A stretch of 42,209 nt of DNA from Effusibacillus pohliae DSM 22757 (GTDB lineage Bacteria > Bacillota > Bacilli > Tumebacillales > Effusibacillaceae): contig NZ_AQXL01000110.1 of assembly GCF_000376225.1 (NCBI RefSeq), forward strand, positions 1 to 42,209. Reading direction: 5' to 3'. Below, piece by piece: positions 5,857 to 41,511 of the stretch. A model generated the notes under the pieces. It was given only the letters and a program-made list of their open reading frames with translations. It made no database searches and had not been told where the DNA came from. Numbering within the stretch: position 1 is the stretch's first letter; each line of letters starts with the position of its first letter. The position numbers and the translations under genes are program-made.

Positions 5857-5905
5857 ATGAGACGGGATGAATCAGACGCAGACGGGATCGTGCGGGTGGC
5901 TGATA

Positions 5906-5933
5906 GAGGGTCTCCAGATCGGAGACTCTTTTT
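5906..5933 (+). terminator. Terminator of the LCP gene
   Basis: Stem GGGTCTCC/GGAGACTC with loop AGATC, followed by TTTTT. Confidence 0.85.
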
Positions 5934-6000
5934 CATTGCGGGATTGCGTTGTACAAGCTATCATTGATCTAGACACCATAGGATTCAAGGGGGCTTTTGC

Positions 6001-7365: not shown

Positions 7366-8095
7366 GATCGGCTATCTGTATCCGGATTTGCTCGAGGTGT
7401 ACAGTGACCGGGGGAATGTCACGGTCTTGCAGAAAAGGGCGGAATGGCGGGGCATCGACGTGCAGGTGGACCACATCACGATCGGCGACAACCCTGATCT
7501 GTCAGACTATGACTTGCTGTTCGCGGGCGGCGGTGAAGACCGGGAGCAGTTGCTGGTGGCGGAAGATCTGTTGAAAAAACGGGACTCGCTGTTCAAGGCG
7601 GTCGATTCTGGCACAGTGGTGCTGGCGATCTGCGGCAGCTACCAACTGCTCGGCCATTATTTTGAAACGATTGGCGGCAATCGGATTGAAGGGATTGGCC
7701 TGCTCGATCTCTACACGATCGGCGGCCGACGGCGGCTCGTTGGCAATGCGGTCGGCAAGCTGACGATTTTTGATGAGGAGTGCACGGTTGTCGGATATGA
7801 AAATCATTCGGGCAGGACGTATCTTGGCCCGGAAATGGCGCCGCTGGCGGCGGTGGTTAGCGGGTTCGGCAATAACGGGGAAGACGGATTGGAGGGCGTC
7901 GTGGAGGGCACTGTGTTCGGCACTTATTTGCATGGGCCGATTTTGTCGAAGAATCCGCGGCTGGCCGATCATTTGCTGCAGTTGGCGCTGCGACGGAGGA
8001 CGGACAATCCGTACTTGCCGCCGCTCGACGATGATTGGGAATTGGCGGCACATGAGCGCGTCGTCCGGCAATATGCCCAGATTGGACGCAGGTAG
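7346..8095 (+). CDS. gatD: Lipid II isoglutaminyl synthase, glutamine amidotransferase subunit
   Basis: 249-residue class I glutaminase that supplies ammonia to MurT. The catalytic Cys lies in AICGSYQLLG and the His in YLHGPI. The N-terminus IGYLYPDLLEVYSDRGN is typical of GatD. I chose GTG 7346 because GGAG lies about seven bases before it. A TTG at 7355 is the alternative. The overlap with murT indicates one operon. Confidence 0.93.
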   Translation: MWQLKLKIGYLYPDLLEVYSDRGNVTVLQKRAEWRGIDVQVDHITIGDNPDLSDYDLLFAGGGEDREQLLVAEDLLKKRDSLFKAVDSGTVVLAICGSYQLLGHYFETIGGNRIEGIGLLDLYTIGGRRRLVGNAVGKLTIFDEECTVVGYENHSGRTYLGPEMAPLAAVVSGFGNNGEDGLEGVVEGTVFGTYLHGPILSKNPRLADHLLQLALRRRTDNPYLPPLDDDWELAAHERVVRQYAQIGRR

Positions 8096-8151
8096 CAGGA
8101 CGTAACAGGTTGCTTTACGCCATTTTGTTCGAAAATCGGATCGGCGCCCGA

Positions 8152-8180
8152 TTGAAATTCCGGCCAGGCCGTGGTACCAT
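8152..8180 (+). promoter_or_regulatory. Promoter of the second tRNA cluster
   Basis: TTGAAA, a 17-base spacer, then TACCAT at 8175-8180, about 70 bases before the first tRNA. Confidence 0.7.
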
Positions 8181-8250
8181 ATCATTTGTCGCCGCGAACA
8201 GGCAACGCGAACAGGCAATGTGTTTTGCCTTGGCGGCAAGTGATGTTCGC

Positions 8251-8343
8251 GGAGAGATGTCCGAGTTGGTCGAAGGAGCACGATTGGAAATCGTGTAGGC
8301 GGTTCACCCCGCCTCGTGGGTTCGAATCCCACTCTCTCCGCCA
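8251..8343 (+). tRNA. tRNA-Ser (GGA)
   Basis: Class II tRNA with a long variable arm. Anticodon stem CACGA/TCGTG encloses TTGGAAA, anticodon GGA. Acceptor GGAGAGA/TCTCTCC, encoded CCA. Confidence 0.96.
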
Positions 8344-8353
8344 GACAACCATT

Positions 8354-8430
8354 GGCTCGATAGCTCAGTTGGTGAGAGCGACGGATTCATAACCCGTAGG
8401 TCGGGGGTTCAATTCCCTCTCGAGCCACCA
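8354..8430 (+). tRNA. tRNA-Met (CAT), elongator
   Basis: Acceptor GGCTCGA/TCGAGCC is fully paired and CCA is encoded. The anticodon loop TTCATAA carries CAT. The first acceptor pair is G-C, so it is not an initiator. It looks like the elongator Met tRNA of Bacilli. The minor Ile (CAT, modified to lysidine) is the alternative. Confidence 0.9.
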
Positions 8431-8463
8431 TTTTCAGCCCATTCAAATCAAACAAAGCCAAGT

Positions 8464-8558
8464 GGAGTGATGGCCGAGTAGGTCGAAGGCGCTCGCCTGC
8501 TAAGCGAGTATACGGGAATAAACCCGTATCGAGGGTTCGAATCCCTCTCACTCCGCCA
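8464..8558 (+). tRNA. tRNA-Ser (GCT)
   Basis: Class II tRNA with a long variable arm (TACGGG/CCCGTA). Anticodon stem CTCGC/GCGAG encloses CTGCTAA, anticodon GCT. Acceptor GGAGTGA/TCACTCC, encoded CCA. Confidence 0.96.
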
Positions 8559-8585
8559 GTTAAGCTTGCTTTCGGGCAAAGGATC

Positions 8586-8618
8586 CGAAGGGGCTGCCTT
8601 GAGTGGGCAGCCCCTTCG
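8586..8618 (+). terminator. Stable hairpin ending the second tRNA cluster
   Basis: 13-bp stem CGAAGGGGCTGCC/GGCAGCCCCTTCG with a seven-base loop. A proper T run is missing, so it is a terminator by position and stability only. Confidence 0.55.
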
Positions 8619-8714
8619 CGGTTTACCCAATCAGGTGGAAAATCAACATTCCCAGGAGATTCAAGACCACCCGCATGCTCGCTCCTGTCAGGACACGTCT
8701 TAGGAGGAACGCGG

Positions 8715-8918
8715 ATGATTCGTACCATGCTGGTTCTTAAAGATGGGGAAATCACGACGATTTTTATGCTGCTGACCTTTATTGTCGGCGTGTACGGCAT
8801 GAATTTCGACAATATGCCGGAACTGCACTGGAAATACGGATACTATGCGGTGCTCGGGCTGATGGCCGCGATCGCGCTCGGCATGGTGCTCTGGTTCAAA
8901 CGAAAAGGCTGGTTTTAA
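8715..8918 (+). pseudogene. CorA C-terminal fragment (two membrane helices)
   Basis: 67 codons that match only the last 50-55 residues of CorA Mg2+/Co2+ channels. The first helix is followed by the signature YGMNF and [10 protein letters not shown], then the second helix and the end FKRKGWF. The whole cytoplasmic domain, about 250 residues in normal CorA, is absent. The first 13 residues do not look like CorA. The fragment nevertheless has its own strong ribosome binding site (AGGAGG, 8704-8709) and an intact frame. It is probably a truncated remnant. A retained small membrane protein is possible. Confidence 0.75.
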
Positions 8919-8932
8919 GGGAGTATGGGCAG

Positions 8933-10210
8933 ATGAACTATGATGTGATCGTCGTCGGCGGCGGACCGTCCGGCCTGATGGCATGCGTTTCCGCCGGAAT
9001 GCAAGGAGCGAAAGTGCTGCTCGTCGACAAGGGGGACAGGCTTGGCCGGAAGCTGGCGATTTCGGGCGGCGGCCGCTGCAATGTGACGAATAATCGGGAC
9101 ATCGACGAGATTGTCAAAAATATACCGGGAAACGGGCGGTTCCTGTACAGTGCGTTTTCCATTTTTAACAACCGCGACATCATCCGATTTTTTGAGGAAT
9201 TGGGGATTCGGCTGAAGGAGGAAGACAGGGGCAGAATGTTTCCGGTCTCGAATCGGTCGAAAGATGTGGTCGAAGCCCTGATCCGAAAAGTGAAAGAAGT
9301 GGGCACGGAGATCCGCGTGCATGCCCCCGTCGAGCGGGTACTCTATCAGGATGGACAGGTAGTCGGGGTCCGCTTGCGTTCAGGCGAAGAAATCGACGCC
9401 TGCAACGTGATTGTGGCGGTGGGCGGGAAGTCGGTGCCGCATACAGGTTCGACCGGTGACGGATACGCGTGGGCTGAAGAAGCGGGTCATACGATCACGG
9501 AACTGTTCCCGACGGAAGTGCCGATCACGCTGAACGAAGATTTTATCCGGGAACGGCGGTTGCAGGGATTGTCCCTGCGCAACATTCATCTGGCGGTGTA
9601 CAACGCAAAGGGCAAAAAAATGGTCGAACACGAAGGCGATATGATCTTTACCCATTTTGGCATTTCCGGGCCGGCGGCACTCCGCTGCAGCCAGTTTGTG
9701 GTGAAAGCGCTGAAACAGTCGAACGGGCAGGACATCCGGATGACGATCGACCTGTTTCCGGAAAAAACAGAGGACCAGATTTTTCACGAGACGTATGAAC
9801 TGGCGAAGCGGGAACCGCGGAAAGCGGTAAAAAATGTGCTGAAAGGCTATTTGCAGGAGCGGATGATTCCGCTTGTGCTGGAGCGGGCAGGGCTGCGGGA
9901 CGACATTACGTTCGCCAACCTGCCAAAAGCACCGTGGGCCAAAATGGCCCATTTGCTCAAAGCGTTTCCCCTCAGAGCGAACGGCACGCTGACGATCGAG
10001 GAAGCGTTTGTCACCGGCGGCGGCGTCAATCTGAAGGAAATCGATCCGAAGACGATGCAATCGAAGCTGATGCAGGGCTTGTTTTTCTGCGGGGAGATCC
10101 TGGATATTCACGGGTATACGGGAGGGTACAACATCACGGCTGCGTTCAGCACGGGTTACACCGCCGGAAAAAGCGCCGCGGAGCGGGCCTTGCGGCTGAG
10201 TGGGCAATAA
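8933..10210 (+). CDS. HI0933/BaiN-like NAD(P)/FAD-dependent oxidoreductase
   Basis: 425-residue flavoprotein. The N-terminal Rossmann motif [11 protein letters not shown] is followed by the family signature [11 protein letters not shown] at about residues 40-50. [20 protein letters not shown]-like sequence (broken here as [12 protein letters not shown]) and [16 protein letters not shown] near the C-terminus are typical of the HI0933/YhiN group. The physiological substrate of the family is mostly unknown, and BaiN relatives in gut clostridia act on bile acids. The ATG follows AAGGGAG. It lies 14 bases after the CorA fragment and probably shares its transcript. Confidence 0.88.
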
Positions 10211-24966: not shown

Positions 24967-25063
24967 CATGGAACAAGCGCCCATCGGTTCAATCGATGTA
25001 AGGAATAAAAACGAATGGTCCCCCGAACAATAAACACAGCTTTGGATGGAAGAGGGGATCCGA

Positions 25064-28000
25064 TTGTTCGAATTTCTGCGGAATTGGACAAGCCGTACCG
25101 ACGTACCGGGGCGGCTGCGGATCAAAGTAAACGGTTTGCGTCAGAATCCGAAACGAAAGTGCGAGATCGAACAGGCCCTCGGCCAGCTGCACGGCGTTCG
25201 GCTGGTGGAAGCCAGTCCCGTCACCGGCAGAGTACTGATTTTGTTTGATCAATCGGTGGTGCAGCCGCAGCAACTTTGTGAAATGCTGCAGATTGTCGGG
25301 GAGGTTACGGGTGGTGGCTGCGAAGACGTCGCGTGGGGCGGAGCCAGTCGGGAAGTGGCTGCTTCCGCGGCGGAAATCGTGCATCAAGTCCCGTCTGACA
25401 CGCACTGGCACGCACAATCGATCGAATGGACGATCGAATGCTTGCGAACCGACACGTCCGGTCTGTTATTGAGGGAGATCAATGAGAGATTGGCCAGGCA
25501 CGGGCCAAACCGGCTGGCAGAAGTGCCGCCTGCCGGCTGGGGCCGTTTGTTTTTCCGGCAGTTCGCCAATTTTATGACGATCACCTTGATCGCGTCGGCT
25601 GCCGTTGCGCTGTTTCTGGGCCGGACACTCGATGCGCTTAGCATCCTCGGGGTCCTGGTGCTCAATGCGGCGATCGGCACGTTTCAGGAACAGAAGGCGG
25701 ACAATGAGGCGCGGGCACTGCGCAAACTGACCGCTCCCAGCGCCCGCGTGCTGCGCGGCGGGAAGGAAATGAAAGTGCCGGCCGATGCGCTGGTGCCGGG
25801 TGATGTGATCATTCTCGACCCGGGTGATCAAATCCCGGCTGATGCTCGCATCATCGATTGTTGGAATCTGGAAGTGGATGAATCGTCGTTGACGGGCGAA
25901 TCGGTGCCGGTGGCGAAAAAAGCGGGATTGTGCGAATCCGACGCGCCGCTCGCCGATCGCACCAACATGCTGTTTATGGGCACCCATGTTACCCGCGGCC
26001 GCGCGCGGGCTGTTGTTGTCGCCACAGGCATGAACACGGAACTGGGCCGCCTGTTTGCGCTGATGCAGAGCCAGTCGGATGAATCGACTCCTTTGCAGCG
26101 CAAATTGAACACGCTCGGCCAATATCTCGTGTTCGGTTCACTCGCTGCCGGCTTGTTCGTGATACTGGTCGGACTGCTCCGCGGCATTCCGACCGTCGAT
26201 ATGTTGATGACCGGCGTCAGCCTGGCCACTTCCGCCATCCCGGAGGGGCTGCCGATCATGATTACGATCGCGCTGGCGGTGGGCATGCGCCGGATGGTTG
26301 GCAAAAATGCGCTGGTGCGCAAACTGTCCGCATTGGAGACGCTCGGACGGGCCACCGTGATCTGTTCCGACAAAACGGGAACCCTCACGAAAAACGAAAT
26401 GACCGTGCGGGCCATAGCCAGCGCCACAACAACCTGGGAAGTGGCGGGAAACGGCTACGCGCCGATCGGTTTTTTTACCGAAAATGGGGTGGAGATTGAC
26501 CCGCAGCAAGCAACTGACTTGCGGTGGATCCTGACAGCCGCCACCTTGTGCAGTAATGCCCAACTGCTGCATAACGGGACGGCCGACTGGGTGACGGAAT
26601 GGCGGCAGTGCCCGGCAGCCGTTCCGGAATCCGGCTGGACGATCCAGGGGGACCCGACGGAAGGGGCGATCCTGGTCGCGGCGGCAAAAGCGAATATCTG
26701 GCCGGACGATTGCCGAAAACCGTGGCAGCGGATCAAGGAGACGCCGTTCGAATCGGAGCGCCGGCGAATGTCGGTCGTCTGCCGCGATCGGGACGGCCAG
26801 CATCAACTGATCGTCAAAGGCGCGATCGAAGAGGTCCTGCAACTGTGCAACCGAGTGCAGATTGATGGCCAGGCTGTGCCGCTTTCGCCTTCGCACCAAA
26901 CGTCGATTTTGCGGCAAAATGAACAGTTTGCCTCACGGGCGCTGCGCGTTCTGGCGGTCGCTTGCCGGCCGCTGGCCGACCAGGAACTGCGGACTGAGCA
27001 AGTCGCGGAGAGCAACCTGATTTTTGCCGGACTGATCGGCATGATTGACCCGCCGCGGGAACAGGTGAAAGAAAGCATCGCCAGCTGTAAAAAAGCGGGC
27101 ATCAAAGTGGTGATGATCACCGGCGACCATCCGCAAACCGCGGCCGCGATCGCGCGGGAACTGAATCTGCTTGAGGACGAGGGGCGGGTGATCACCGGCA
27201 GCGAATTGGAGCAAATGAACGAATCGCAACTGACCGAGTTGGTTCCGCATATCGACGTGTACGCCCGCGTGTCCCCCCATCACAAGCTACGGATCGTATC
27301 CGCCTTCAAAAATCGGGGCGAAATTGTCGTCATGACGGGCGACGGGGTGAACGATGCGCCGGCGGTGAAGCAGGCGGATGTCGGAATCGCGATGGGGAAA
27401 AGCGGGGTGGAAGTGACCAAACAGGCGTCTTCGATGATCATCACCGACGACAATTTTGTCACCATCTGCAAAGGAGTGCAGGAAGGCCGCACGGTGCTCG
27501 GCAATATCCGGAAGGCGCTCGGCTATCTGCTAAGCGGCAACCTGGGGGAAGTGATCTATGCGATGCTGGCGGTGCTTGCCGGGATGCCGCTGCCACTGGT
27601 GCCGATCCAAATCCTGCTGATCAACCTGTTTACTGACGCGCTGCCGTCGATCGCGCTGGCGATGGGGCATCCGCAGCAGGATCCGCAGCGGTTGGCGATG
27701 CGCAGCGAGTGCGATGTGACCGACCGCAGCCTGATTTCCGAAATCATCTCCCGCGGCGTGATCATCGGCCTGACCACGATGGCGGTGTTCAGCGGAGCGC
27801 TGGCGTTCACCGGAAATGTGATGCTGGCCCGGACACTCGCCTTTATGACCGTTTGCGCCAGCGAACTGATCCAGGCGGTCGATTGGTGGCGGAGCGGCGA
27901 TACGCAACCGGAACCGGGCGGCCTGTGGCGGGACCGGTTTATGGTCGGTACATTGGTCGTCTCGTGGTCCGGACTGTTGTCGATCGTGTATCTGCCGCCG

Positions 28001-28222
28001 TTGCAACGCCTGTTCCAAACTGTGCCGTTGGCATTGCCGCATTGGGTGATCGTGCTGGGAATCGGCTATTCGATTTCGCTGCTCAGCAAGCCGACGGCTC
28101 GCTTGGTCGACAGGATTGGCAATCTGCTGCGCGCGAACTTCGGGCGCACCGTTCATTTGCAGCCGCTTGCCGGTTACGCGGCACATGCGACAGTTTCTGA
28201 CAAGCTGAACGCGACTGTATGA
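25064..28222 (+). CDS. P2-type cation ATPase 1 with N-terminal HMA_2-like domain
   Basis: About 1,052 residues. Residues 12-80 form an HMA_2-like domain (VPGRLRIKVNGL, TGRVLILFD) without CxxC. A cation-ATPase N domain follows, then TGES (277-280), PEGLP in M4 (E394), DKTGTLT (D436) and TGDGVND (758-764). The Ca2+-pump ion ligands are conserved: N826/E829 in M5 (GNLGE) and N854/D858 in M6 (NLFTD). I expect ATP-driven export of Ca2+, Mn2+ or a similar ion. The start is TTG 25064, which has GAGG eight bases before it; in-frame ATG 25046 has none. It is the first gene of a block with three more ATPase-like genes. Confidence 0.9.
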   Translation: MFEFLRNWTSRTDVPGRLRIKVNGLRQNPKRKCEIEQALGQLHGVRLVEASPVTGRVLILFDQSVVQPQQLCEMLQIVGEVTGGGCEDVAWGGASREVAASAAEIVHQVPSDTHWHAQSIEWTIECLRTDTSGLLLREINERLARHGPNRLAEVPPAGWGRLFFRQFANFMTITLIASAAVALFLGRTLDALSILGVLVLNAAIGTFQEQKADNEARALRKLTAPSARVLRGGKEMKVPADALVPGDVIILDPGDQIPADARIIDCWNLEVDESSLTGESVPVAKKAGLCESDAPLADRTNMLFMGTHVTRGRARAVVVATGMNTELGRLFALMQSQSDESTPLQRKLNTLGQYLVFGSLAAGLFVILVGLLRGIPTVDMLMTGVSLATSAIPEGLPIMITIALAVGMRRMVGKNALVRKLSALETLGRATVICSDKTGTLTKNEMTVRAIASATTTWEVAGNGYAPIGFFTENGVEIDPQQATDLRWILTAATLCSNAQLLHNGTADWVTEWRQCPAAVPESGWTIQGDPTEGAILVAAAKANIWPDDCRKPWQRIKETPFESERRRMSVVCRDRDGQHQLIVKGAIEEVLQLCNRVQIDGQAVPLSPSHQTSILRQNEQFASRALRVLAVACRPLADQELRTEQVAESNLIFAGLIGMIDPPREQVKESIASCKKAGIKVVMITGDHPQTAAAIARELNLLEDEGRVITGSELEQMNESQLTELVPHIDVYARVSPHHKLRIVSAFKNRGEIVVMTGDGVNDAPAVKQADVGIAMGKSGVEVTKQASSMIITDDNFVTICKGVQEGRTVLGNIRKALGYLLSGNLGEVIYAMLAVLAGMPLPLVPIQILLINLFTDALPSIALAMGHPQQDPQRLAMRSECDVTDRSLISEIISRGVIIGLTTMAVFSGALAFTGNVMLARTLAFMTVCASELIQAVDWWRSGDTQPEPGGLWRDRFMVGTLVVSWSGLLSIVYLPPLQRLFQTVPLALPHWVIVLGIGYSISLLSKPTARLVDRIGNLLRANFGRTVHLQPLAGYAAHATVSDKLNATV

Positions 28223-28559: not shown

Positions 28560-31500
28560 ATGGAGTTGGAAGTGCGGTTTGTCCGGCGTATGCCGGGGCG
28601 CTTGCGAATGTACATATACGGGTTGCAAAACGACGCCCGCAGCTGCCGTTTATTTGAAGAATTTTGCTTGCAGGTCCCCGGCGTGAGGATGGCGTCAGCC
28701 GGGATGGTCACCGGCCGTGTGCTGGTTCTGTTTGATGAAAGCAAACTGACACATGCGGAGCTGGAACAGCGGCTGCTTGAACTTGAACGGCTGCTGCCGC
28801 AACCGGTCCGATTGGCTGCTGCTGCGAAAGAGCAGTTTGCCACAGAAGGCGCGCTCGCTGTGAAACTCGACTGGCACTGCTTGCGGCCGTCCGAAATTTT
28901 GCAGCATCTGCAAAGTGACAGCCAAAATGGGCTGACTGCCGCGGAGGCGGCCAGCAGACGTCTGTATTTCGGCGCAAACGAACTGCCGGAGGCGGAAGCG
29001 GCCGCCTGGTACAGGACGCTCTTCCGACAACTGTTTAACTTTACCACGCTCGCGATGGTCAGCATTTCGGCACTGCCGATTTTTTTCGGGCGAATCCGCG
29101 ATACCGCGGGCGTTCTGTTGATCCTGGCGGTCAATGCGGTGATCGGCACCTACCAGGAACAGAAAGCGCAAAATGACATCCGGTCGTTGCAGAAACTGGC
29201 GGTGCATCAGGCGAAAGTCATCCGGTCGGGCGAGCAAACGGAGATTCTGGCGAACGAATTGGTGCCCGGTGACATTTTGCTGCTGGAAGCGGGCGATCGG
29301 ATTCCGGCCGATGCGGTTGTGCTGGACAGTTGGGATCTGGAAGTCGACGAGTCGGCTCTGACGGGCGAATCGTTGCCGGTGGCAAAAGCGGCCGCCGTCA
29401 GCCGACCGGACCTGCCTGTGGCCGAGCGCAAAAACATGCTGCACATGGGTACATTTATCACTCGCGGCCGGGCCAAAGCGGTGGTGGTCGCAACCGGTGA
29501 AAAAACGGAGATGGGCAAGCTGGCCAGCGGCCTGCAGACGGTGGAAAATCGGCCAACACCGCTGCAGCGAAGGCTGAATGTGGTGGCGCGAACATTGGTC
29601 ATCTCGGCACTGTTGATTGCCGGGTTGGTTGTAGCGGCGCGATTTATGCAAGGATTCTCGCTGACCGAAACGCTGATGACCGGAGTTTCGGTGGCGACCA
29701 CCGCAATTTCGGAAGGGCTGCCGATCATGATCACGCTGTCGCTGGTTGCGGGGATGCGCCGGATGGTTCGCCACAAGGCGGTAATCCGGCGGCTGTCCGC
29801 GCTTGAAACGCTGGCGAAAGTCGATGTCATCTGTTGCGACAAGACAGGCACACTGACGAAAAATCAGATGACCGTGCGGTCCGTCATTTCTCCCGATCGA
29901 ACGTGGACCGTGTCGGGTGACGGGGATCGTGGCCAGGGTGCACCCGATGAGGATCTGGCGTGGTTGGCAACGATTGCTGCTGTCTGCAACGATGCCTCAT
30001 TCTTTCATGAGCGGGTCGATTCGGCAACAAGGAGAGGGAACATCGCCGGGGCGGGCAGCCGGCGGGCGGTCGAGGGAGACCCGACGGAGGCGGCGTTGCT
30101 TGCGGCAGCGGTGCAAACGGGCGTTTCGCCGGAAGATTGCCGCAACCGGTGGCACAGGCTGTTCGAGATTCCGTTCGATTCGAACCGGCGGCGCATGACA
30201 GTTGTCTGCCAAAATCGCGGCGGCGATACGTTCGTCTTCATGAAAGGGTCGGTCGATGTGGTTCTGGAACGATGCCAGTTTACAAAAATCGGCGGTGCCG
30301 TCTGCGAACTGGATCCCCGCCTGCGCACCAAAATCATCGACCAGGAGCGGGAAGCGGCCGGTCAAGCAATGCGTGTGCTGGCGGTTGCCTACAAAAAGCT
30401 GCAGGAGGAACCGGTCTCGTTGCCAGCGGAGGAACTGGAAGCCGATCTGGTGTTTGGCGGAATGTTTGCGATGGTTGACCCGCCGCGCGAGGATGTGCGA
30501 AACAGCATCGCGGCGTGCCGAAAGGCGGGCATCCAAGTTGTGATGATCACCGGCGACCATCCGCAAACCGCGGAAGCCATCGGCCGGGAACTGGGGCTGG
30601 TGTGGGAACCCGGCCAGGTGCTGACGGGGGCCGATTTGGCAAACGTGAGCGATGAACAGTTGGCGGCCGCCAGCGACTCTGTGCGAATCTACAGCCGGGT
30701 GTCACCTACTGACAAGCAGCGGATCGTGTCCGCCCTGCAAAAGCGGGGACGGATCGTCGCCATGACAGGTGACGGAGTGAACGACGGACCGGCACTGAAG
30801 CAGGCGGACGTCGGCATTGCGCTCGGATCGGGCACCGATGTAGCGAAAGAATCCGCTTCGCTGGTTTTGATGGACGACCGTTTTTCCACTATCGTCCAGG
30901 CGATTCGCCAAGGGCGGTCAGTATTGCGCAATATCCGGAGCACGATCGGGTATATTTTTACCGGCAATTTTGCGGAAGTGCTGTACGCGGGGCTGACTGT
31001 TGCAGTCGGTTTGCCGCTGCCTCTGATGCCGCTGCAAATGATGTTCATGAACCTGTTGACCGATTCACTGCCGACCATGATGATGATCCTCGGCCGGCCC
31101 GGTGGCCGGCTGGCGGCTGCCGAACGACCGCTGCCCGCAGCCAGCGAAGTGTTCGACAAAGGACAGATCGCCCGGGTAATCGCCGGCGGAGCGCTGGTCG
31201 GGCTGGCGACCAGCGTTCTGTTTCTGGGAGCCACTACTTTCACCGGCAATCCTGCGTTGGCCGGAACGATGGCGTTGGCCGCTCTGTGCATTGGAAAATT
31301 GGCGCAAGTGTCCTACTGGCGGAAAGGCAGCGGCGAACCGGGAGATTGGCGGAGCGATTCGATCATGATCGCCACCTTGGGCGTCTCGCTGGCCGGGCTC
31401 GGGGCTGCCATCTACTTGCCGCAATTGCGGTTTGCGTTCAACAGCGTGCCGCTCGGTCTCCATCATTGGGCGTTGATTCTGGCGACCGTTTTTGCAGCGG

Positions 31501-31607
31501 TACGGTTGACCCCGCGCTTGACCGAAACCATCCTTGGCTCGTTGCACCGGTTTTCCGGACGGAAGTCCGCAAATTACCAGCTGCGCCCGCAACTGTCAGT
31601 CGGTTAA
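28560..31607 (+). CDS. P2-type cation ATPase 2 with N-terminal HMA_2-like domain
   Basis: 1,015 residues, clearly related to ATPase 1. The HMA_2-like domain (MPGRLRMYIYGL, VTGRVLVLFDE) lacks CxxC. The catalytic set is complete: TGES (268-271), DKTGTLT (D427) and TGDGVND (736-742). Ion-site residues N803/E806 (GNFAE) and N831/D835 (NLLTD) are kept. M4 reads SEGLP instead of PEGLP (S384, E385), so the helix-breaking proline of the ion site is lost, which may change selectivity or coupling. The ATG follows AGGAGAGAGG. The next gene starts 66 bases later. Confidence 0.9.
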   Translation: MELEVRFVRRMPGRLRMYIYGLQNDARSCRLFEEFCLQVPGVRMASAGMVTGRVLVLFDESKLTHAELEQRLLELERLLPQPVRLAAAAKEQFATEGALAVKLDWHCLRPSEILQHLQSDSQNGLTAAEAASRRLYFGANELPEAEAAAWYRTLFRQLFNFTTLAMVSISALPIFFGRIRDTAGVLLILAVNAVIGTYQEQKAQNDIRSLQKLAVHQAKVIRSGEQTEILANELVPGDILLLEAGDRIPADAVVLDSWDLEVDESALTGESLPVAKAAAVSRPDLPVAERKNMLHMGTFITRGRAKAVVVATGEKTEMGKLASGLQTVENRPTPLQRRLNVVARTLVISALLIAGLVVAARFMQGFSLTETLMTGVSVATTAISEGLPIMITLSLVAGMRRMVRHKAVIRRLSALETLAKVDVICCDKTGTLTKNQMTVRSVISPDRTWTVSGDGDRGQGAPDEDLAWLATIAAVCNDASFFHERVDSATRRGNIAGAGSRRAVEGDPTEAALLAAAVQTGVSPEDCRNRWHRLFEIPFDSNRRRMTVVCQNRGGDTFVFMKGSVDVVLERCQFTKIGGAVCELDPRLRTKIIDQEREAAGQAMRVLAVAYKKLQEEPVSLPAEELEADLVFGGMFAMVDPPREDVRNSIAACRKAGIQVVMITGDHPQTAEAIGRELGLVWEPGQVLTGADLANVSDEQLAAASDSVRIYSRVSPTDKQRIVSALQKRGRIVAMTGDGVNDGPALKQADVGIALGSGTDVAKESASLVLMDDRFSTIVQAIRQGRSVLRNIRSTIGYIFTGNFAEVLYAGLTVAVGLPLPLMPLQMMFMNLLTDSLPTMMMILGRPGGRLAAAERPLPAASEVFDKGQIARVIAGGALVGLATSVLFLGATTFTGNPALAGTMALAALCIGKLAQVSYWRKGSGEPGDWRSDSIMIATLGVSLAGLGAAIYLPQLRFAFNSVPLGLHHWALILATVFAAVRLTPRLTETILGSLHRFSGRKSANYQLRPQLSVG

Positions 31608-31673: not shown

Positions 31674-34445
31674 ATGATCCAGATGATCAACAGAGTGGGC
31701 AGGGTAGCGCTTCAGTTGACGCGGATTCCTGCGATTTTCCTGCAAAATTTGGTGACGGGCGGCCAGCAGCCGAATCTTGTGCAAGGACAGCTGCAGCAAA
31801 GCGATTTGATGGACGGTTGGGAGAAAGGGTTGACCTCGGAGCAGGCAACCGCCCGCCTGCAGCAACACGGGTATAACCACTACCGGCCGCAGGTCGGCCG
31901 TGCGCAACTATTCGGCGAACATTTTAAAAATGTGGCCGCACTCAGCCTGTTGGGCTTCGGCGCGTTGGCATTGGCGATCGGCAAATACGCGGACGCCGCC
32001 ATTGTGTTTCTGGTCTTTGCCGTCTCGGCCGCTTATGCAACCCGGTTAAAACTGCGGTCCGAGCAAAGCTACCGACACCAGTTGGAACAGCAAAAGACTG
32101 CGACCGTCCTGCGGGACGGCAAACTGTGTCAAGTCGCTCCGGCCCGCGTGGTTCCGGGGGACATCGTTTTCCTGCGGCAAGGCGATGTGGTGCCGGCCGA
32201 TTGCGTCATCTTGCGCTGCACGAATCTGCAGGTCCGCGAAATGGATGCCGATTCTTCGTTTCGTGTCATGTTGAAATGCGCGGCGAATTCTGAATTCGGG
32301 CAACCTGTACGGCTACATGCCGCAACGGATGCGAACAGGCTGGTCGCCGGATCGGTTGTAATCGGCGGCGCGGCGCAAGCCCTCGTCACCGCCACCGGGA
32401 ATTCCACGCGGCATGCGTCCATTTTTCGCAAACCAAAACATCAACATTTGTTTACAGAAACACGCTACAATCAGTTTTCCAAGCAACTGACCAAAATCGG
32501 CTGGGTGGTCCTGCTGCTCGCAGCCGGCTTGGTCCTGGCGGTCGGCTGGCCTGCGGCGGTGGCTGTGGAAACGGCCAGCGCTGTTGCTACGTCGGTGATT
32601 CCAGGCGGTTTCTCGTTGCCGATTTGCTTGGCGTTTTGGACCGCGGTCCAGAGAACCGGCTGGAGAGGGCAGGACCTGCCGAGTCTGCACCATGTGGACC
32701 GGCTGGAGGACACCAAGCTGGTGGTCCTCTCCGAACAAGCTCTCACGCAGGACATGCATCCCAGCAAGTTGTGGTGTCCGCAGTCGCACTGGACGGTGGC
32801 AGCTGATGTACAGGACCACGAACATGCGGGGAAGCTGCTTTTTTACAAAAGCGGCATTCGGACACAACCAAGCGGTTCATCCGAATGTCTGTCCGTCGTG
32901 CAAGCGGCGAGGCTGTTTGCCCGCGTGGACGGGGAATGGGGGCCTTATGACCGGGCGGTGAACCGGCTGTACAGCCATTTTCAGGTGCCGACAGCGTTCG
33001 ATGTGAGCGGCTGGCCATGGATCGATCACACTGACTTGCCGGAGCACGGTCTGTTTGAAATGCGAGCCTTCCAGGTCCCCGGCGGACCGATTGTGGAAGT
33101 GGTTCGCGGGCCGGCGGAACTGCTGTTTGAAAGCTGCCGGCGGGTGATGGGACCGGAGCAAAATCTGGCTCTTCTGAACCCGGACAACACCGTTGCCAAA
33201 ACTGACGGGATTCGCCGGTCGTTGGAGGATTGGCTGGAAACCGCCCGGCGGCACCACGAGTGCACCGTTGGATTTGCTTACCGCCTTCGCGGAGCTGGCA
33301 CGCTTCCGCAACCGGACGGGCAACAGGCGGCTGCGAAACAGGAGACTGATGGCCTGATCTGGATTGGCGCTCTGGCTTTTCGGCGAACGTACCAAGCTTC
33401 GTCCCAATTGTTGCAACGGTTTGCAAAACTCGGCCTGCCCGTTGTGCTGACCGTGCATGAATGCGTACTGCAGGATCCGACCTTCCGGAAAGCGGTTGTG
33501 TTTGAGAATGCGAACGTCCGCATCCTTCCGGCGAGCGAATTTCTGGCCGGTCTCGAGCATGGACAAGCGCAATTGCAGCAGTCCGACATGTGGATCGTCG
33601 CCGCCGATGAACGGGAGCGCCTGCAGGTGCTGCGAAAACTGCGTGAGCAATTCTCCGATGTGTGTTTTATCGGGTGCTGCGACCAGGAACGGGCATATTA
33701 CGGAGCGGTCTGGATGGCGATCGAACAGGGAATTCGGCGGGGATTGCAGGACATCGTGGAGACGCTGGAGGAAACCCGGCACGCCCGCTCCCGCATCGGC
33801 CATGCCAATGGATTCATCCTCAGCGGCAACATCGGAGAAGCGGTGTATTCGATCGTTTCCGGTTTGGCCGGGGCCCATCATGCGCTTTCACCGGTGATCG
33901 TCAACCTGCTGACCGGCACCGTCGCATCGATCGGGTTGGCTGCAGGACGGCGCGGGATGGATCCTTCACAGCCACACCAAAACAGCGATCTGGGACACTT
34001 GCACAAACCGATCGTGACGCATGGGATCGTATCGGGCAGCATATCGTTACTGGCGTATGCGGGCGGGCTGCTGATCAGCGACGATCCACTGTTTGCCGCT
34101 ACGTTTGCGTTTGCCACGTTGATATTGTCGCAATTGTGGCAGGCGTTTCACTGGCGCCGACAGTCGCGTCTCGCCAAGCTCAGCGACCTGTGGGAAGACC
34201 GGGTGTTGGCGATCGCTTTGTTCGCCTCGCTTGCGATTCTCGCTCTCAGCATCCATCTGCCGGGACTGTCGCAATTGTTGCAGACGACACCGCTCGCATT
34301 GCAGGATTGGCTGGTTGCCGCAGCCATTGCCGGTGGGGTCGGACCGGTCGCTTCCACAAGCGAACAGATCATTTGGCCGCTGTTGGAGCGAATCGGCAAG
34401 CTGCTCCAGCGATCCCGTTCCGCAAATCAGGGGGCAGCTGCGTAA
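31674..34445 (+). CDS. Catalytically dead P2-type ATPase homologue (pseudo-pump)
   Basis: 923-residue uninterrupted ORF with the full P2 layout but degraded motifs. The N-terminal region and first helices match ATPases 1 and 2 (VVPGDIVFLRQGDVVPADCVIL), but there is no HMA_2 domain. TGES is replaced by ADSSFRVM. M4 reads PGGF (310-313) for PEGL. The segment replacing DKTGTLT is SEQALTQ with Glu at 354, so the phosphorylation Asp is gone. TGDGVND is replaced by GCCDQERAYY. M5 keeps GNIGE while M6 has NLLTG, losing the Asp. It cannot be a phosphorylating pump. The intact length argues for a structural or sensory role. Ribosome binding site GAGGTGA. Confidence 0.87.
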   Translation: MIQMINRVGRVALQLTRIPAIFLQNLVTGGQQPNLVQGQLQQSDLMDGWEKGLTSEQATARLQQHGYNHYRPQVGRAQLFGEHFKNVAALSLLGFGALALAIGKYADAAIVFLVFAVSAAYATRLKLRSEQSYRHQLEQQKTATVLRDGKLCQVAPARVVPGDIVFLRQGDVVPADCVILRCTNLQVREMDADSSFRVMLKCAANSEFGQPVRLHAATDANRLVAGSVVIGGAAQALVTATGNSTRHASIFRKPKHQHLFTETRYNQFSKQLTKIGWVVLLLAAGLVLAVGWPAAVAVETASAVATSVIPGGFSLPICLAFWTAVQRTGWRGQDLPSLHHVDRLEDTKLVVLSEQALTQDMHPSKLWCPQSHWTVAADVQDHEHAGKLLFYKSGIRTQPSGSSECLSVVQAARLFARVDGEWGPYDRAVNRLYSHFQVPTAFDVSGWPWIDHTDLPEHGLFEMRAFQVPGGPIVEVVRGPAELLFESCRRVMGPEQNLALLNPDNTVAKTDGIRRSLEDWLETARRHHECTVGFAYRLRGAGTLPQPDGQQAAAKQETDGLIWIGALAFRRTYQASSQLLQRFAKLGLPVVLTVHECVLQDPTFRKAVVFENANVRILPASEFLAGLEHGQAQLQQSDMWIVAADERERLQVLRKLREQFSDVCFIGCCDQERAYYGAVWMAIEQGIRRGLQDIVETLEETRHARSRIGHANGFILSGNIGEAVYSIVSGLAGAHHALSPVIVNLLTGTVASIGLAAGRRGMDPSQPHQNSDLGHLHKPIVTHGIVSGSISLLAYAGGLLISDDPLFAATFAFATLILSQLWQAFHWRRQSRLAKLSDLWEDRVLAIALFASLAILALSIHLPGLSQLLQTTPLALQDWLVAAAIAGGVGPVASTSEQIIWPLLERIGKLLQRSRSANQGAAA

Positions 34446-34591: not shown

Positions 34592-34849
34592 TTAAGATTG
34601 GACCGGCTCCGTTTGCTTTTGCGACTCTTCGCCCATGGACTCCACGAGACGCATCTCTTCCACCAGAGAACTCAACTGCTCCCGGGCACCGGTCGCGGTG
34701 CTGCGAACCTGGTCCATCAAATCCAACAGGGCGACCGTGCCTTTCACCGCCAGTTTGCGGGCCGCTTGCCTGGCTTCCGGAGACAGCGCCAGAATGACGG
34801 TGGCGGCGGTCAGGGTCAGACCAAGCGGCGATCGGAAAAATCGAACCAT
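34592..34849 (-). CDS. Small membrane protein with amphipathic tail
   Basis: 85 residues. A membrane segment at about residues 5-22 is followed by SPEARQAARKL and a helical, charged tail (VEEMRLVESMGEESQKQ). The start is ATG 34849 with GGAGGG six to seven bases before it; the longer upstream frame has no site. It is divergent from the pseudo-P1B gene at 34998, sharing a 150-base control region, and has its own terminator. It resembles the DUF5132 protein of this block in layout (helix then charged tail), though not clearly in sequence. Confidence 0.68.
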   Translation of the reverse strand: MVRFFRSPLGLTLTAATVILALSPEARQAARKLAVKGTVALLDLMDQVRSTATGAREQLSSLVEEMRLVESMGEESQKQTEPVQS

Positions 34850-34997
34850 CCAGAACCCTCCATTCAATGCCAAAGTCAGCCAACTGCTGCTAAGCATACC
34901 CGAACCGGCCAAAAATATTCTGCGCCCGTTCAGTAATAAAATTTGGCAAACCGTTCACAATATGCCTAGTTCAACCTGATTTTTAAGGAGAATCGTT

Positions 34998-36926
34998 ATG
35001 CCCGGAATCCACGAGAAAGGGAGACTCGTGCGAGCGCTCCCTGGCAGAGTCCGCGTCGAGGTGCACGGACTCCGACACAATCGACAGGCGGAAAGCTGGA
35101 TTTTGCAGCGATTTCGGCGGCTGGAAGGGATTTGTAAAGTTTCCCCCTGCGCGCTGACAGGCCGAGTCTTGTTCGTGTACGACGAACAGCGGATCACTTT
35201 GCAGGCCATCCTGCAGCACATCCGCTCTTTTGAAGCGCAAATGGTGCAGATGCAGACGGCGGAGCGGGAAGTGGCGCCTGCCGCCCAGCCGGCCGGTGTG
35301 ACTTCGCTTCCGACCGCTTCCGCAGTCGCAAAAAACGAATATGTGGGCGAACGGGTTCCCCTGGGCTTGGCGTTGTCGGTCGGCGGTTTGGGGGCGCTTG
35401 CCGTCAAACAGTTGTGGATTGGCGGACCGTCCGCCCTGGCGCGAAATCCGGCCGCTTTTTACCTGTCCGGATTGGTCTCGGTGGTGATGGGTTATCCGGT
35501 TTTCGCCCAGGTCGTTCAGCAGGCGGTGCGCAACGGCAAGCGGAGCGGCAGCAAACCGACGATCGATCCGATTTTTCTGAGTGCGTTGGTGCTGGCGCTG
35601 GTGCGGGAAAATTTGGTCGTGCTGTGCGGACTGAGCTTGATCCAGTATCTGAACTGGCAGCGGCAGCAGGCGGCTTTTGAGCAGGACAGCAAAGCGTCGC
35701 CCGCCTGGTCCTGTCCGGAAATCAGGCGGTACAGCGAACAGGCGGGCATCTGGGGAATCGCTCTCGCTGCCGCCGCATGGGCGGCCACCCGCAATCCGCT
35801 GACCGGGCTGGCCGTGCTGCTGGCGGCCAACCCGCGGCCGGCCACCTTGCCGTCCGATTATGCCTGGCGGCAGGCGGAGGTAATCGCTCGCGAACGAGGA
35901 TATCAAGTGCCGGACCGCGGTTCCTTGCTGCAACTGGCCCGCACGAAAACCGTTTTGTTCGAAGACACCTCATTGATTTTCAGGCAGGATGACGATTCGG
36001 ACATCCGCTGCGTTTCGAAGCGGGATCAGGCAGAAAAAATCTGGTGTCTCGCGGCATCCCTCCTGAAGAAAAGCGATCACCCGTGGCGACAGGCGGTGTT
36101 CAGGCAGGCGGAAGCAAGCGGTCGCACCGTTCGTACCGCTTTTGACGTGTCAGTGACAGAGCATGGTATCAAAGGGAAAGTCAACGGGTTGGAAGTGTTG
36201 CTCGGCGACCGGGAATTCATGCGGCAAAACGGCGTGGATTGCAGCGAGTACGATCTGGAAGCGAAACGGTTGAAAAAAGCAGGCTATCTGTTCCAATTTT
36301 TGGCAAAACAGGAACACAACCAACGGTTGTGCCGCGGGCTGCTGGCCGGCAAAATGGGTGGCGTTACGCCCGAATTTGCCGATTTTGTCAACCGGGCTGC
36401 CAATTCGAAATGGCAGATCGGCGCTTTGCACAACAGCCTGCAGATCGATCGGGAGACGCTGCTTCGAAAGGGAATCGAACCTACCTGGTTAGCCTGTGAA
36501 GGCAGGCGAGCGGCGCACGATCTCCACGCGATGCTGCGTCAGGGGGAACATGTGCTGCTTGTAAGTGGGGATGCTTTCGGTGCGAAAGAGTTGGCCAACA
36601 CGATGAACATTCCGTCTGTCTCACTGGAACAATTGCAGGATGTCGTCCCGGCCGTAGAGTACGCCCGCCGGATCGATCAGATGGTCCGGCAGCATCTGGT
36701 GGTCGCGAAGCTTTGGAATGTGGTCGGTTGCCTGCTGGCGATCCCGTTCGGGTTCAGTTCATTTTCCATCAATGTGCTGGCGGACGCCGTATTCTTGCTC
36801 CTCCTGGTCCGGGCGACGCGCGTCAGCCAGCTCGAAGTACCGGTTGAACGGGCTATCGGAGAGCGTCATAATTTGCCCCGGGTAGAGGTGGCCGCCGCCG
36901 TGGAAACGGTTGATTCGGCGGTCTAA
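34998..36926 (+). CDS. HMA_2-domain pseudo-P1B-type ATPase lacking the actuator domain
   Basis: 642 residues. Residues 8-75 form an HMA_2-like domain (LPGRVRVEVHGLRHN, LTGRVLFVYDE) without CxxC. Four or more membrane helices follow. The metal-site CPC motif is NPRP (278-281). The whole actuator domain with TGES, about 100 residues, is missing. FDKTGTLT reads FEDTSLIF, with Glu322 for Asp. SDHP (359-362) and HGIKGKVNGLEVLLGDREF of the nucleotide domain survive. TGDGxND is SGDAFGA (523-529). It therefore derives from a P1B heavy-metal ATPase, not from the P2 pumps nearby, and cannot transport by the usual cycle. ATG 34998 follows AAGGAG. Confidence 0.85.
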   Translation: MPGIHEKGRLVRALPGRVRVEVHGLRHNRQAESWILQRFRRLEGICKVSPCALTGRVLFVYDEQRITLQAILQHIRSFEAQMVQMQTAEREVAPAAQPAGVTSLPTASAVAKNEYVGERVPLGLALSVGGLGALAVKQLWIGGPSALARNPAAFYLSGLVSVVMGYPVFAQVVQQAVRNGKRSGSKPTIDPIFLSALVLALVRENLVVLCGLSLIQYLNWQRQQAAFEQDSKASPAWSCPEIRRYSEQAGIWGIALAAAAWAATRNPLTGLAVLLAANPRPATLPSDYAWRQAEVIARERGYQVPDRGSLLQLARTKTVLFEDTSLIFRQDDDSDIRCVSKRDQAEKIWCLAASLLKKSDHPWRQAVFRQAEASGRTVRTAFDVSVTEHGIKGKVNGLEVLLGDREFMRQNGVDCSEYDLEAKRLKKAGYLFQFLAKQEHNQRLCRGLLAGKMGGVTPEFADFVNRAANSKWQIGALHNSLQIDRETLLRKGIEPTWLACEGRRAAHDLHAMLRQGEHVLLVSGDAFGAKELANTMNIPSVSLEQLQDVVPAVEYARRIDQMVRQHLVVAKLWNVVGCLLAIPFGFSSFSINVLADAVFLLLLVRATRVSQLEVPVERAIGERHNLPRVEVAAAVETVDSAV

Positions 36927-37199: not shown

Positions 37200-37223
37200 G
37201 GTTGCAAGCGAGGAGTGAGGCGT

Positions 37224-37451
37224 ATGACGGAAGAACAAACGATCGATCACCATCTGCGGCAGGCGCTAGCCCATCTGGAAACCGCTCTGAATCAAAGCGT
37301 GGCGGCGGTTATGAACGACCAGGCGCTGAAAAAGGAGATCGGAAAGAAATGGGAGATGTTTCTCGGAGACTTTTTTGGGTATGTGCGGGAAAAAGGCAAG
37401 CAGCACCGGATCAACTTGCTCGGCTGGATTTCGTTTCCGCGCTTGAGGTAA
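37224..37451 (+). CDS. Small soluble protein ending the ATPase block
   Basis: 75 residues, mostly helical and charged (DHHLRQALAHLETALNQS, LKKEIGKKWEMF), with an aromatic stretch FLGDFFGYV that may form an amphipathic helix. It lies 24 bases after the DUF5132 gene and is followed by a terminator, so it is probably the last gene of the operon. GAGGAGTGAGG precedes the ATG; GTG 37215 is an alternative. Family not recognised. Confidence 0.65.
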   Translation: MTEEQTIDHHLRQALAHLETALNQSVAAVMNDQALKKEIGKKWEMFLGDFFGYVREKGKQHRINLLGWISFPRLR

Positions 37452-39962: not shown

Positions 39963-40570
39963 CTAGCGAGCATGTTGGCGCCGGGGCATTAAGATCCAGA
40001 CGATGGACGGATTGTTCACAGTTGCCTGTTCATGGATTATAACGACACGCTCGCCATGACGGGAAAAGTTGCGTTTGACGAACCCAACGACGTTTTCCAC
40101 CCGCCCTTTGCTTTCCGGATCCTGCTTGCGGCACATGCGCACTTGAAATCCGCGTTGCCGGACGTAGGCAGCGAATTTGGCTGTCAGGATCAGGTCACCA
40201 TGATTCTCGCTGACGAGCAGCAAATGATCCTGATCATAGACGATCTCACGGGTCATGCCGCCGAAAAATTCGAAGGCATTTCATGACAACGAATGACGTT
40301 CGTTGTGGTGAACGGTCGATCCTGCCATTCCACGTATTTGTACCGGGAATGGGACAGGACGAACGTTATGCACGATAACCGCACAGGATGCTGATGAAGA
40401 TCGTGCGTTTTCGTTTCGCCGAAATCGACCTGCATCTGCTGTCCCATGGGTGGATCTTCGATCGCTTCGTACTGGCGCATGGGCTTGCTTTTCGGGATGC
40501 CATGCTGCTCACGCAAGTGACGAACGAAGTTCCGAACGGTACTCTCGCAGACGTTGGGAGTATAAAATCT
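39963..40570 (-). pseudogene. istA: IS21-family transposase istA remnant
   Basis: Two minus-strand frames join into one IstA-like sequence. The first (down to 40253) has TVRNFVRHLREQHGIPKS, QYEAIEDPPMGQQMQVDFGE and a DDE Asp. The second (40256-39963) has MTREIVYDQDHLLLVSENHG and RKQDPESKGRVENVVGFVK with the DDE Glu. A one-base shift near 40255 separates them. The N-terminal DNA-binding part and the C-terminus are both missing, and no istB follows, so it is dead debris. Confidence 0.85.
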
Positions 40571-40617
40571 CATCCGATTCGAGCAGCCCAACCTGCTAGG
40601 TTGCCCCTTTTCTCCTT

Positions 40618-41511
40618 TCACTGGCGACTGGACATTTTGGCCCGGCGCAGCAGCATCCAGGTGCCGGTCGCTAGAAGCAGGAGCGTCACCGTTGATCCGA
40701 CGGGAAACGGAGTGCCCGCAATGGAACGGTTGTGAACGGAAACAAAAAATTCACTGTCCGGTAAACTGCTAAAATACCCGCTCAGGATCCGGCCGCCTTC
40801 CCCGGTTTCCCTGACATCAAGCTGTGGTTGGGTGGCGATCGCCAAATTGGGCGGTGCAATCACTCGGATAGACAGGTTTTGAAACGAACTCCAATAGCCG
40901 GCGGGTGACAGCAGGTATGTGAAATGGTACATCCGTTTCCGGGAATCGTTGCACGCATCGCAGGCGGTGGCTTCCTGATGGTAGGTCACGACCAACTCCC
41001 CTTCCGATCCGCCGGCAACCGTCAGGGGAAACAAGGCGGTGTGCAGCCCGTTTGCGTACACCGTTTTGTTCGCATAGGTCTCGCCGGTTGACGGATTAAG
41101 CCAGCGCGTGTCGATTCGGTTAATTGATTCCAGTCCCTGCGGGGGCTGCCAACCCTGCGGCATATCCGGTCCCGGCGGTTGCATCGGGACATCCTGTCCG
41201 TTCCAGGTGGCCTTGATATCGGCTGCCGGTTTCAGGTAGAGAAACGCTACCTTGAGGGGTGCCGCTTGCGGCGATGGATTTTTCAGTCGATATTTGGCGG
41301 TGACCAACGGTGATGCATCGGAAGGAGCGGCGGGCGGGCGAAAATCGAACGTCAGCTCTTCTGCGACAACTTCTATTTTTGAATTGGCATCTGGTACCAG
41401 CATGGCGGACGGGGAAGATTCCAGCGAGACGGGAAGACCGTTCGCACCGGCCAGATCCACGAGGCAAAGCAGGTACAGACAAACGGCGGCCGCGATTCGC
41501 GAATACTGCAA
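40618..41511 (-). CDS. Secreted membrane-anchored protein of unknown function
   Basis: About 297 residues. An N-terminal signal peptide (LYLLCLVDLAGANG, cleavage likely after ANG) precedes a beta-rich extracellular domain with YRLKNPSPQAAPLKVAFLY, a CDAC pair at about residue 183-186 and many aromatic residues. A C-terminal helix (GSTVTLLLLATGTWMLL) with basic tail LRRAKMSSRQ follows, so it is a type I membrane protein. The best start is TTG 41511 with AAAGGGAG ten bases before it; an in-frame ATG at 41541 has no site. IS debris flanks it on both sides. Family not recognised. Confidence 0.72.
   Translation of the reverse strand: MQYSRIAAAVCLYLLCLVDLAGANGLPVSLESSPSAMLVPDANSKIEVVAEELTFDFRPPAAPSDASPLVTAKYRLKNPSPQAAPLKVAFLYLKPAADIKATWNGQDVPMQPPGPDMPQGWQPPQGLESINRIDTRWLNPSTGETYANKTVYANGLHTALFPLTVAGGSEGELVVTYHQEATACDACNDSRKRMYHFTYLLSPAGYWSSFQNLSIRVIAPPNLAIATQPQLDVRETGEGGRILSGYFSSLPDSEFFVSVHNRSIAGTPFPVGSTVTLLLLATGTWMLLRRAKMSSRQ

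Follow-up and report, generated by a model that had tools for sequence, protein, structure and literature searches.

The protein encoded at positions 34998 to 36926 of contig NZ_AQXL01000110.1 from Effusibacillus pohliae DSM 22757 is, judged by its sequence, a conserved pseudo-ATPase: P1B by descent, and not a working P1B pump. We call it psP1B. Our preferred reading, to which we give a probability of roughly 0.55, is that psP1B has no catalytic role and acts as a membrane subunit onto which small membrane proteins and P2 cation pumps dock, most likely within the forespore. A P-type ATPase is usually regarded as an enzyme complete in itself; a dead member preserved by constraint, and either joined to a live pump of a different class or encoded next to one, would amount to a pseudoenzyme subunit within the P-type superfamily.

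The window, meaning the whole 42,209-nucleotide stretch of DNA that was analysed, carries a cluster of two P2 ATPases that look alive, two pseudo-ATPases (psP2 and psP1B), and three small genes:

25046..28222, + strand: ATP1, an HMA_2-P2 ATPase with TGES, DKTGT, GDGVND, and PEGLP in M4
28560..31607, + strand: ATP2, an HMA_2-P2 ATPase with intact catalytic motifs; M4 reads SEGLP
31674..34445, + strand: psP2, a P2-derived pseudo-ATPase of 923 aa, still matched by PF00122, with DKTGT, TGES, and GDGxND lost
34592..34849, - strand: pac-like divergent small membrane protein (SPLG...LSPEAR...VKG); start at 34849 by ribosome site, with a longer TTG ORF to 34912
34998..36926, + strand: psP1B, HMA_2 plus an actuator-less, catalytically dead P1B-derived protein, 642 aa
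36954..37199, + strand: DUF5132-like small membrane protein of 81 aa, companion of psP1B
37215..37451, + strand: S78, 78 aa, no membrane segment by eye, conserved after units that contain a P2 ATPase

ATP2 has SEGLP instead of the P2-type PEGLP in all four copies compared (the window and genomes G007, G001, and G006). Elsewhere in the window, two adjoining ORFs at 39963-40621 (- strand) look by eye like transposase pieces; they have no Pfam match. DUF421/YetF-like membrane proteins, also recognized by eye, lie near the cluster in two other genomes (L035 485-1219 and L037 14330-15064).

The psP1B frame is intact, and its ATG start codon has GGAG seven bases 5'. Its parts are as follows:

35031..35225, + strand: HMA_2 domain, with an LPGRVR motif and without CxxC
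35349..35894, + strand: membrane part MA-M4, residues 118-299, the most conserved region of the family
35685..35717, + strand: short M2-M3 loop at the normal place of the actuator domain, residues 230-240 (AlphaFold2 model, no PF00122)
35829..35840, + strand: NPRP in M4, in the place of CPC/SPC, residues 278-281
35961..35972, + strand: EDTS where DKTGT would begin, residues 322-325
35988..36353, + strand: degenerate N domain, residues 331-452, containing SDHP (359-362) and HGIKGKV (389-395)
36624..36830, + strand: M5-M6, residues 543-611, with W573-N574 in M5 and N592 and D596 in M6

Three hallmarks of a working P1B pump are missing: DKTGT, an actuator domain with TGE, and the CPx/SPC metal motif in M4. 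Neither GDGxND nor TGE was found anywhere in psP1B. A preliminary description, made from the sequence alone, had proposed an HMA_2 domain followed by a degenerate NPRP helix and the P and N domains, with the actuator domain deleted, and had called for structure prediction. The description holds. Pfam HMA_2 (PF19991) matches residues 12-76 above its gathering score (34.4 bits; cut-off, 30), NPRP stands at 278-281, and the reading frame is unbroken. The E1-E2_ATPase family PF00122, matched by the other three ATPases of the cluster, does not match psP1B, and in the AlphaFold2 model about ten residues are all that separate the M1-M2 helix (191-230) from M3 (240-264), with no beta domain between M2 and M3.

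The kinship with P1B pumps, also proposed beforehand, is real but remote. NCBIfam TIGR01525 matches residues 254-440 (E=1e-12), under the family cut-off, and sequence matches among proteins of known structure include LpCopA (7.9e-5) and SsZntA (9.6e-4). The structural model, built from 21 sequences (mean pLDDT 76.6, pTM 0.56), is confident in HMA_2 and in the P/N region, and mostly of low confidence in membrane residues 142-204. Its top 21 Foldseek matches are all P1B pumps or their ATP-binding domains. A CopA structure aligns over 373 residues (Z 17.9), although with an rmsd of 5.6; alignment of the P/N part to ADP-bound CopA gives Z 17.8 and rmsd 3.2. For a fused relative that lacks the N domain, the eight best fold matches were likewise P1B pumps, none at E < 0.001.

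The same architecture recurs in relatives, which excludes chance as its explanation. Among 61 genomes, the window's own included, three others have a full stand-alone psP1B, one from the window's genus and two from its order (42, 46, and 38% identity), each time within a four-ATPase cluster. A scan of a contig collection with the single psP1B protein found no match; a scan with an alignment of the family identified 19 named loci in Bacilli (Brevibacillus, Paenibacillus, Thermoactinomycetaceae, Ammoniphilus, Aneurinibacillus, Bacillaceae and kin, and Tumebacillus). At every one of the 19 loci, the actuator-less module forms the N-terminal half of a long ORF (1401-1637 aa) and is joined to a P2 ATPase. 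This bears out the proposal that two different pump families had been combined: the P1B piece and the P2 ATPase share one ORF. These loci hold 20 fused copies, of which one (L055) is interrupted at 1239, in the P2 half, and another (L047) starts at a contig end. All 20 have DKTGT once, in the P2 half, and none in the N-terminal half; all 20 P2 halves have GDGVND, PEGLP, and TGES (SGES in three), and 14 copies have the NLxTD pattern of M6.

Class-wide, psP1B matches occur in 37 of 398 genomes sampled, where searches scored the best 3 (psP1B), 2 (psP2), or 13 (DUF5132-like) first-look candidates per genome. In 26 of the 37 the open frame is long (1400-1661 aa), which we interpret as a fusion. 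The full stand-alone form is present in four genomes, two of which also carry the long form, and psP2 is found in the same four. A short stand-alone form (370-511 aa) occurs in eight genomes of one family (L071-L078), and one match (G293) is a broken piece close to the end of its contig. Genes near the short forms include cell-division genes, presumably of the mraZ/mraW type. In 36 of the 37 genomes the matches lie in open frames, and their spans are too short to house an actuator domain. The preliminary description had called for a search for homologues with the same deletion, and had reasoned that close homologues with a full actuator domain and DKTGT would mark psP1B as a recent decay product. 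The deletion is instead common to those 36 genomes, and homologues with both features are only distant, in other classes.

Two further surveys delimit the distribution. Among 341 plasmid records, no place covers 80% of the psP1B query; among the 40 matches listed, similarity is confined to residues 264-592, and 38 carry an annotation as P-type or cation ATPase, the other two carrying none. In 14 control genomes HMA_2 was never over its cut-off, and was weak in two.

A phylum-wide search gave 39 genomes with a match, and the loci inspected besides the window's were those of G485, G690, G540, and G726, all four genomes lying outside the class sample. L087 and L088 encode P1B pumps with CPC, TGES, DKTGT, and HN in M6. 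A third P1B pump (L090) has SPR in M4 and DKTGT, and adjoins an HMA_2-P2 pump. HMA_2 is Pfam-confirmed in the P1B genes of L087 and L090, and recognized by motif only in L088.

One locus, L089, encodes a 1571-aa tandem P-type ATPase (4480-9195, - strand), P1B-like and then P2, with DKTGT and GDGxND in both halves. TGES is only in the second half, the first reading TGSA; an HMA_2-like ORF overlaps the start, and the locus also holds a further DKTGT-bearing P1B gene. The tandem is possibly a living intermediate of the fusion.

In a tree of the N-terminal module, built without L052, the second L053 copy, L055, L056, and G377, the actuator-less family stands apart from the active P1B pumps (100/100). 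The stand-alone proteins form one clade (95/77), which itself sits within a group of fused forms (97/98); the short forms and two of the fused rows, G007 and Tumebacillus, branch outside that group. In a quick tree of P2 sequences, covering 11 of the 19 named loci, the third ATPase of G006 (L037 8942-12061) falls inside the clade of fused P2 halves (SH-aLRT 100), next to the fused protein of G006 itself (86). Its gene adjoins the stand-alone psP1B. On these trees, the G006 P2 gene and the stand-alone psP1B are arranged as fission would leave complementary products. The psP2 protein could not be placed, because it is too divergent (branch 9.3 in the P2 tree).

The simplest history that fits the sequences begins with separate pumps, continues with fusion and death of the P1B half, and ends with fission, G006 at least having retained both products. 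The ancestor of psP1B would have been an HMA_2-P1B metal pump that was later joined to a P2 cation pump. Within Bacilli, the actuator domain and the phosphorylation site of the P1B half would then have disappeared, as would its N domain in one branch, whereas the membrane domain would have been kept. In the lineage of the window, this dead half appears, from sequences and trees, to have split off again to stand alone with P2 ATPases.

Across all rows of the psP1B family, mean pairwise identity is 0.51 in MA-M4, 0.43 in the former phosphorylation region, 0.37 in both HMA_2 and M5-M6, 0.35 in the N domain, and lowest, 0.23, in the former GDGxND region. A control alignment of 18 P2 halves (leaving out the interrupted L055 and the second L053 copy) gives 0.77 in the phosphorylation region, 0.67 in the GDGxND region, 0.67 in M3-M4, 0.62 in M5-M10, 0.57 in the A domain, 0.50 in the N domain, and 0.44 in M1-M2. 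Thus, the catalytic core is ahead in the live half and behind in the dead half, whereas both halves preserve M3-M4 well. A conserved membrane region is not in itself a peculiarity of the dead half, since M3-M4 of the P2 halves ties with their GDGxND region. R203, E204, N278, P279, and D596 are invariant in all 21 aligned rows, and R280 is retained in 20; DKTGT is found in none of the 21.

These invariant residues, together with a membrane part that is the best conserved region, could also mean that psP1B is a non-catalytic sensor or gate that regulates the attached P2 pump. Its altered site (NPR in M4, RE at M1-M2, and N/D in M6) would then bind an ion or be held shut by a salt bridge, and an HMA_2 domain in front would fit metal sensing. 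However, (R/K)ES at M1-M2 is also present in the active relatives L087, L088, and L090, and is therefore inherited rather than new; there is no known ligand; and the model is too weak in M1-M2 to bear on a salt bridge. We consider regulation of this kind unlikely, though it fares best among the alternatives to docking.

The docking interpretation of psP1B itself derives mainly from the small proteins, which divide into two groups according to the ATPase that they accompany. The window's DUF5132-like protein just misses Pfam DUF5132 (24.7 bits; cut-off, 25). A profile of such proteins matches 37 of the 398 class genomes, 36 of which are among the 37 psP1B genomes. Both exceptions are explained by contig ends: the psP1B fragment in G293 lies about 200 bases from one, and in G005 the contig begins inside the P2 ATPase ORF, followed by the DUF5132-like gene. 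A DUF5132-like gene lies less than 6 kb from 36 of the 39 psP1B matches. The remaining three are the cut copy in G293 and the fused genes in G006 and in G007; neither fused gene has small partner genes alongside, and both genomes have a stand-alone unit elsewhere.

The pac-like gene is present in all 38 carriers (the 37 psP1B genomes plus G005) vs 4 of 41 other genomes tested. It lies away from the unit in G007 and G005, and about 3 kb downstream in L050. S78 follows a different pattern: it is found at 18 of the 19 named loci, next to the L089 tandem, and next to all four HMA_2-P2 genes compared from the short-form family, but next to none of the eight short psP1B units. Both the DUF5132-like and the pac-like genes stay with the short psP1B in all eight of those genomes, where no P2 ATPase adjoins. 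This split implies that the DUF5132-like and pac-like proteins go with the dead P1B module, and S78 with the P2 pump. Pfam places none of the small partners in a secure family: the best E value among 26 pac-like members is 0.0024, with others weak, and S78 has no family above cut-off.

On this basis, the psP1B membrane domain would serve as a docking surface for the DUF5132-like and pac-like membrane proteins. The scaffold would hold one or more P2 pumps in a single assembly, by analogy with mycobacterial PacL/P-ATPase platforms. Weighing against this are the lack of small partners at the fused genes of G006 and G007 and the distance of the pac-like gene from the unit in G007 and G005.

Where such an assembly might act is suggested by promoters. 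Candidates of forespore-sigma type precede two genes of the window's cluster:

34934..34962, + strand: psP1B promoter candidate, TAATA-N17-CACAATA, one mismatch
25003..25032, + strand: ATP1 promoter candidate, GAATA-N18-AACAATA, one mismatch

The pattern follows what we take to be the sigma G consensus. A first scan, with CA[ACT][ACT][ACT]TA as the -10 element, matched 6 of 19 loci on the coding strand (0.22 expected) and 2 of 19 on the other (0.18 expected). The -10 element was narrowed to CAHAHTA after these first matches were seen, and the loci are related to each other; with the pattern so tuned, one mismatch allowed, and a limit of 160 bases, sites precede 16 of 23 units of the family, vs 4 of 23 on the other strand. 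Dinucleotide shuffles gave a mean of 1.6 (maximum, 6) and permuted motifs a mean of 2.1 (maximum, 8). Spacer lengths peak at 17 and 18. Of 234 other ORFs at the same loci, 19 are preceded by the pattern. For ATP1, which was kept out of the tuning, the sites in G007 and G001 are perfect and that in the window has one mismatch. One-mismatch sites also precede the fused genes of G006 and G007 and one of four HMA_2-P2 genes of the short-form family.

No such site was found before the eight short units, the four ATP2 genes, the four psP2 genes, the third ATPase gene of G006, or the window's DUF5132-like gene; the result for the short units counts against a forespore site. Patterns for sigma A, B, and E matched 0 of 19 loci, which says little because fewer than 0.5 matches are expected by chance. 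Promoters of sigma F and sigma G have mutually similar -35 and -10 consensus elements (PMC5942855 and PMC3789822). Genes for SASP are present in all 38 carriers; this adds little, since 37 of 42 non-carriers have them too.

In the proposed model, then, the docked assembly would be made in the forespore and would handle divalent cations, of Ca or Mn type to judge from the P2 motifs, with a role in the spore membrane or in germination. Such a role is not obvious for a P2 efflux pump, because in the forespore membrane it would move cations out of the core.

If the promoter signal were coincidental, the same assembly could be a metal-stress efflux platform like that of PacL and CtpC, unrelated to sporulation. 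Small transmembrane proteins of similar layout do lie beside the HMA_2-P1B pumps of L087, L088, and L090, and PacL platforms are established (PMC9374683 and PMC13043812). We nevertheless judge this improbable: the promoter motif exceeds both shuffles and permuted motifs, has a spacer peak, and recurs in the untuned ATP1 promoters, and Pfam does not put the small proteins in DUF1490 (only one of 26 pac-like members was matched, at E=0.076 and 13.5 bits vs 28.4).

A third alternative concerns the N domain. The preliminary description noted that SDHP and HGIKGKV remain, as they do (359-362 and 389-395), and reasoned that psP1B might still bind a nucleotide. A degenerate domain that did so could make the partner pump subject to cellular ATP. 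Its fold is predicted with confidence (VIA Z 18.2, rmsd 1.6, over 116 residues of the CopA N domain), and the His of SEHP is retained in all 11 N-domain-bearing rows of the 21-row alignment. However, the first Gly of GxG, which we take to be the P1B N-domain motif, is Glu 388 in psP1B and is retained in 0 of the 11 rows; a single row of the 11 keeps the Asn of the GN pair. The whole domain is missing from the other 10 rows, all of Bacillaceae-like genomes, and is not recognizable in the eight short stand-alone forms. Retained nucleotide binding is thus weakly supported, and ATP-dependent regulation of the partner seems to us distinctly improbable.

Nor is psP1B a wreck. Compared among the window, G001, and G007 (G006 was left out), third codon positions of the gene differ by 0.58-0.66 and first and second positions by 0.30-0.48, at 56-60% amino-acid divergence and with synonymous sites near saturation; neighbouring genes have the same pattern. 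Recent decay to a pseudogene, as the loss of every catalytic motif might imply, is therefore ruled out by a deletion common across families (36 genomes), by intact frames in all four full stand-alone copies and in every named fused copy but the interrupted L055 (19 of 20), and by the third-position excess. The psP1B module seems instead to be a conserved, perhaps spore-related, helper subunit.

A broader generalization is tentative, with the odds somewhat against it. Spore-forming Bacilli would have a widespread class of P-type pseudo-ATPases, dead P1B proteins fused to or beside living P2 pumps, that are obligate scaffolds, together with two small membrane proteins, of a heteromeric forespore cation-pump complex. 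The window's lineage would have two live and two dead chains, and the N-terminal half of CtpH and CtpI might be explained as well.

Comparison with known systems places psP1B among several families. To the P1B-ATPases, P1B6-like ones in particular, it is likened by its fold and by features of distant active relatives: HMA_2 in front, small transmembrane partner genes, and, in L087 and L088, CPC in M4 and HN in M6. It differs in having no A domain, DKTGT, TGE, or GDGxND, and in NPR in M4. Calcium P2A ATPases of the PMR1/SERCA type share (T/S)GES, DKTGT, GDGVND, and PEGLP with ATP1 and the fused C-terminal halves; ATP1 and the fused forms differ from them by an N-terminal HMA_2, and the fused forms also by a tethered pseudo-P1B half.

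The nearest mechanistic model is the mycobacterial efflux platform, in which small transmembrane proteins such as PacL (DUF1490) are encoded with P-type ATPases such as CtpC and have a proposed platform role (PMC9374683 and PMC13043812). The partners of psP1B are by contrast DUF5132-like and of an unnamed family, and the core of the platform would be a dead pump. In the open-access literature searched we found no paper that pairs a pseudo-ATPase with a P-type ATPase, none on DUF5132, and none that identifies the N-terminal segment of FUPA24 as a dead P1B pump.

FUPA24 (TC 3.A.3.24), which includes mycobacterial CtpH and CtpI, is described in PMC3573892 as about twice normal length, with the pump motifs C-terminal and a large unexplained N-terminal segment; a 2023 review calls CtpH and CtpI uncharacterised (PMC10654040). 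The named Bacilli fused homologues of psP1B have this overall plan. psP1B differs in being the N-terminal segment alone, 642 aa without a catalytic half. A natural fission of a fused pump would show which half is which. A dead P1B pump offers a testable account of the FUPA24 N-terminal segment, and directs attention to the spore.
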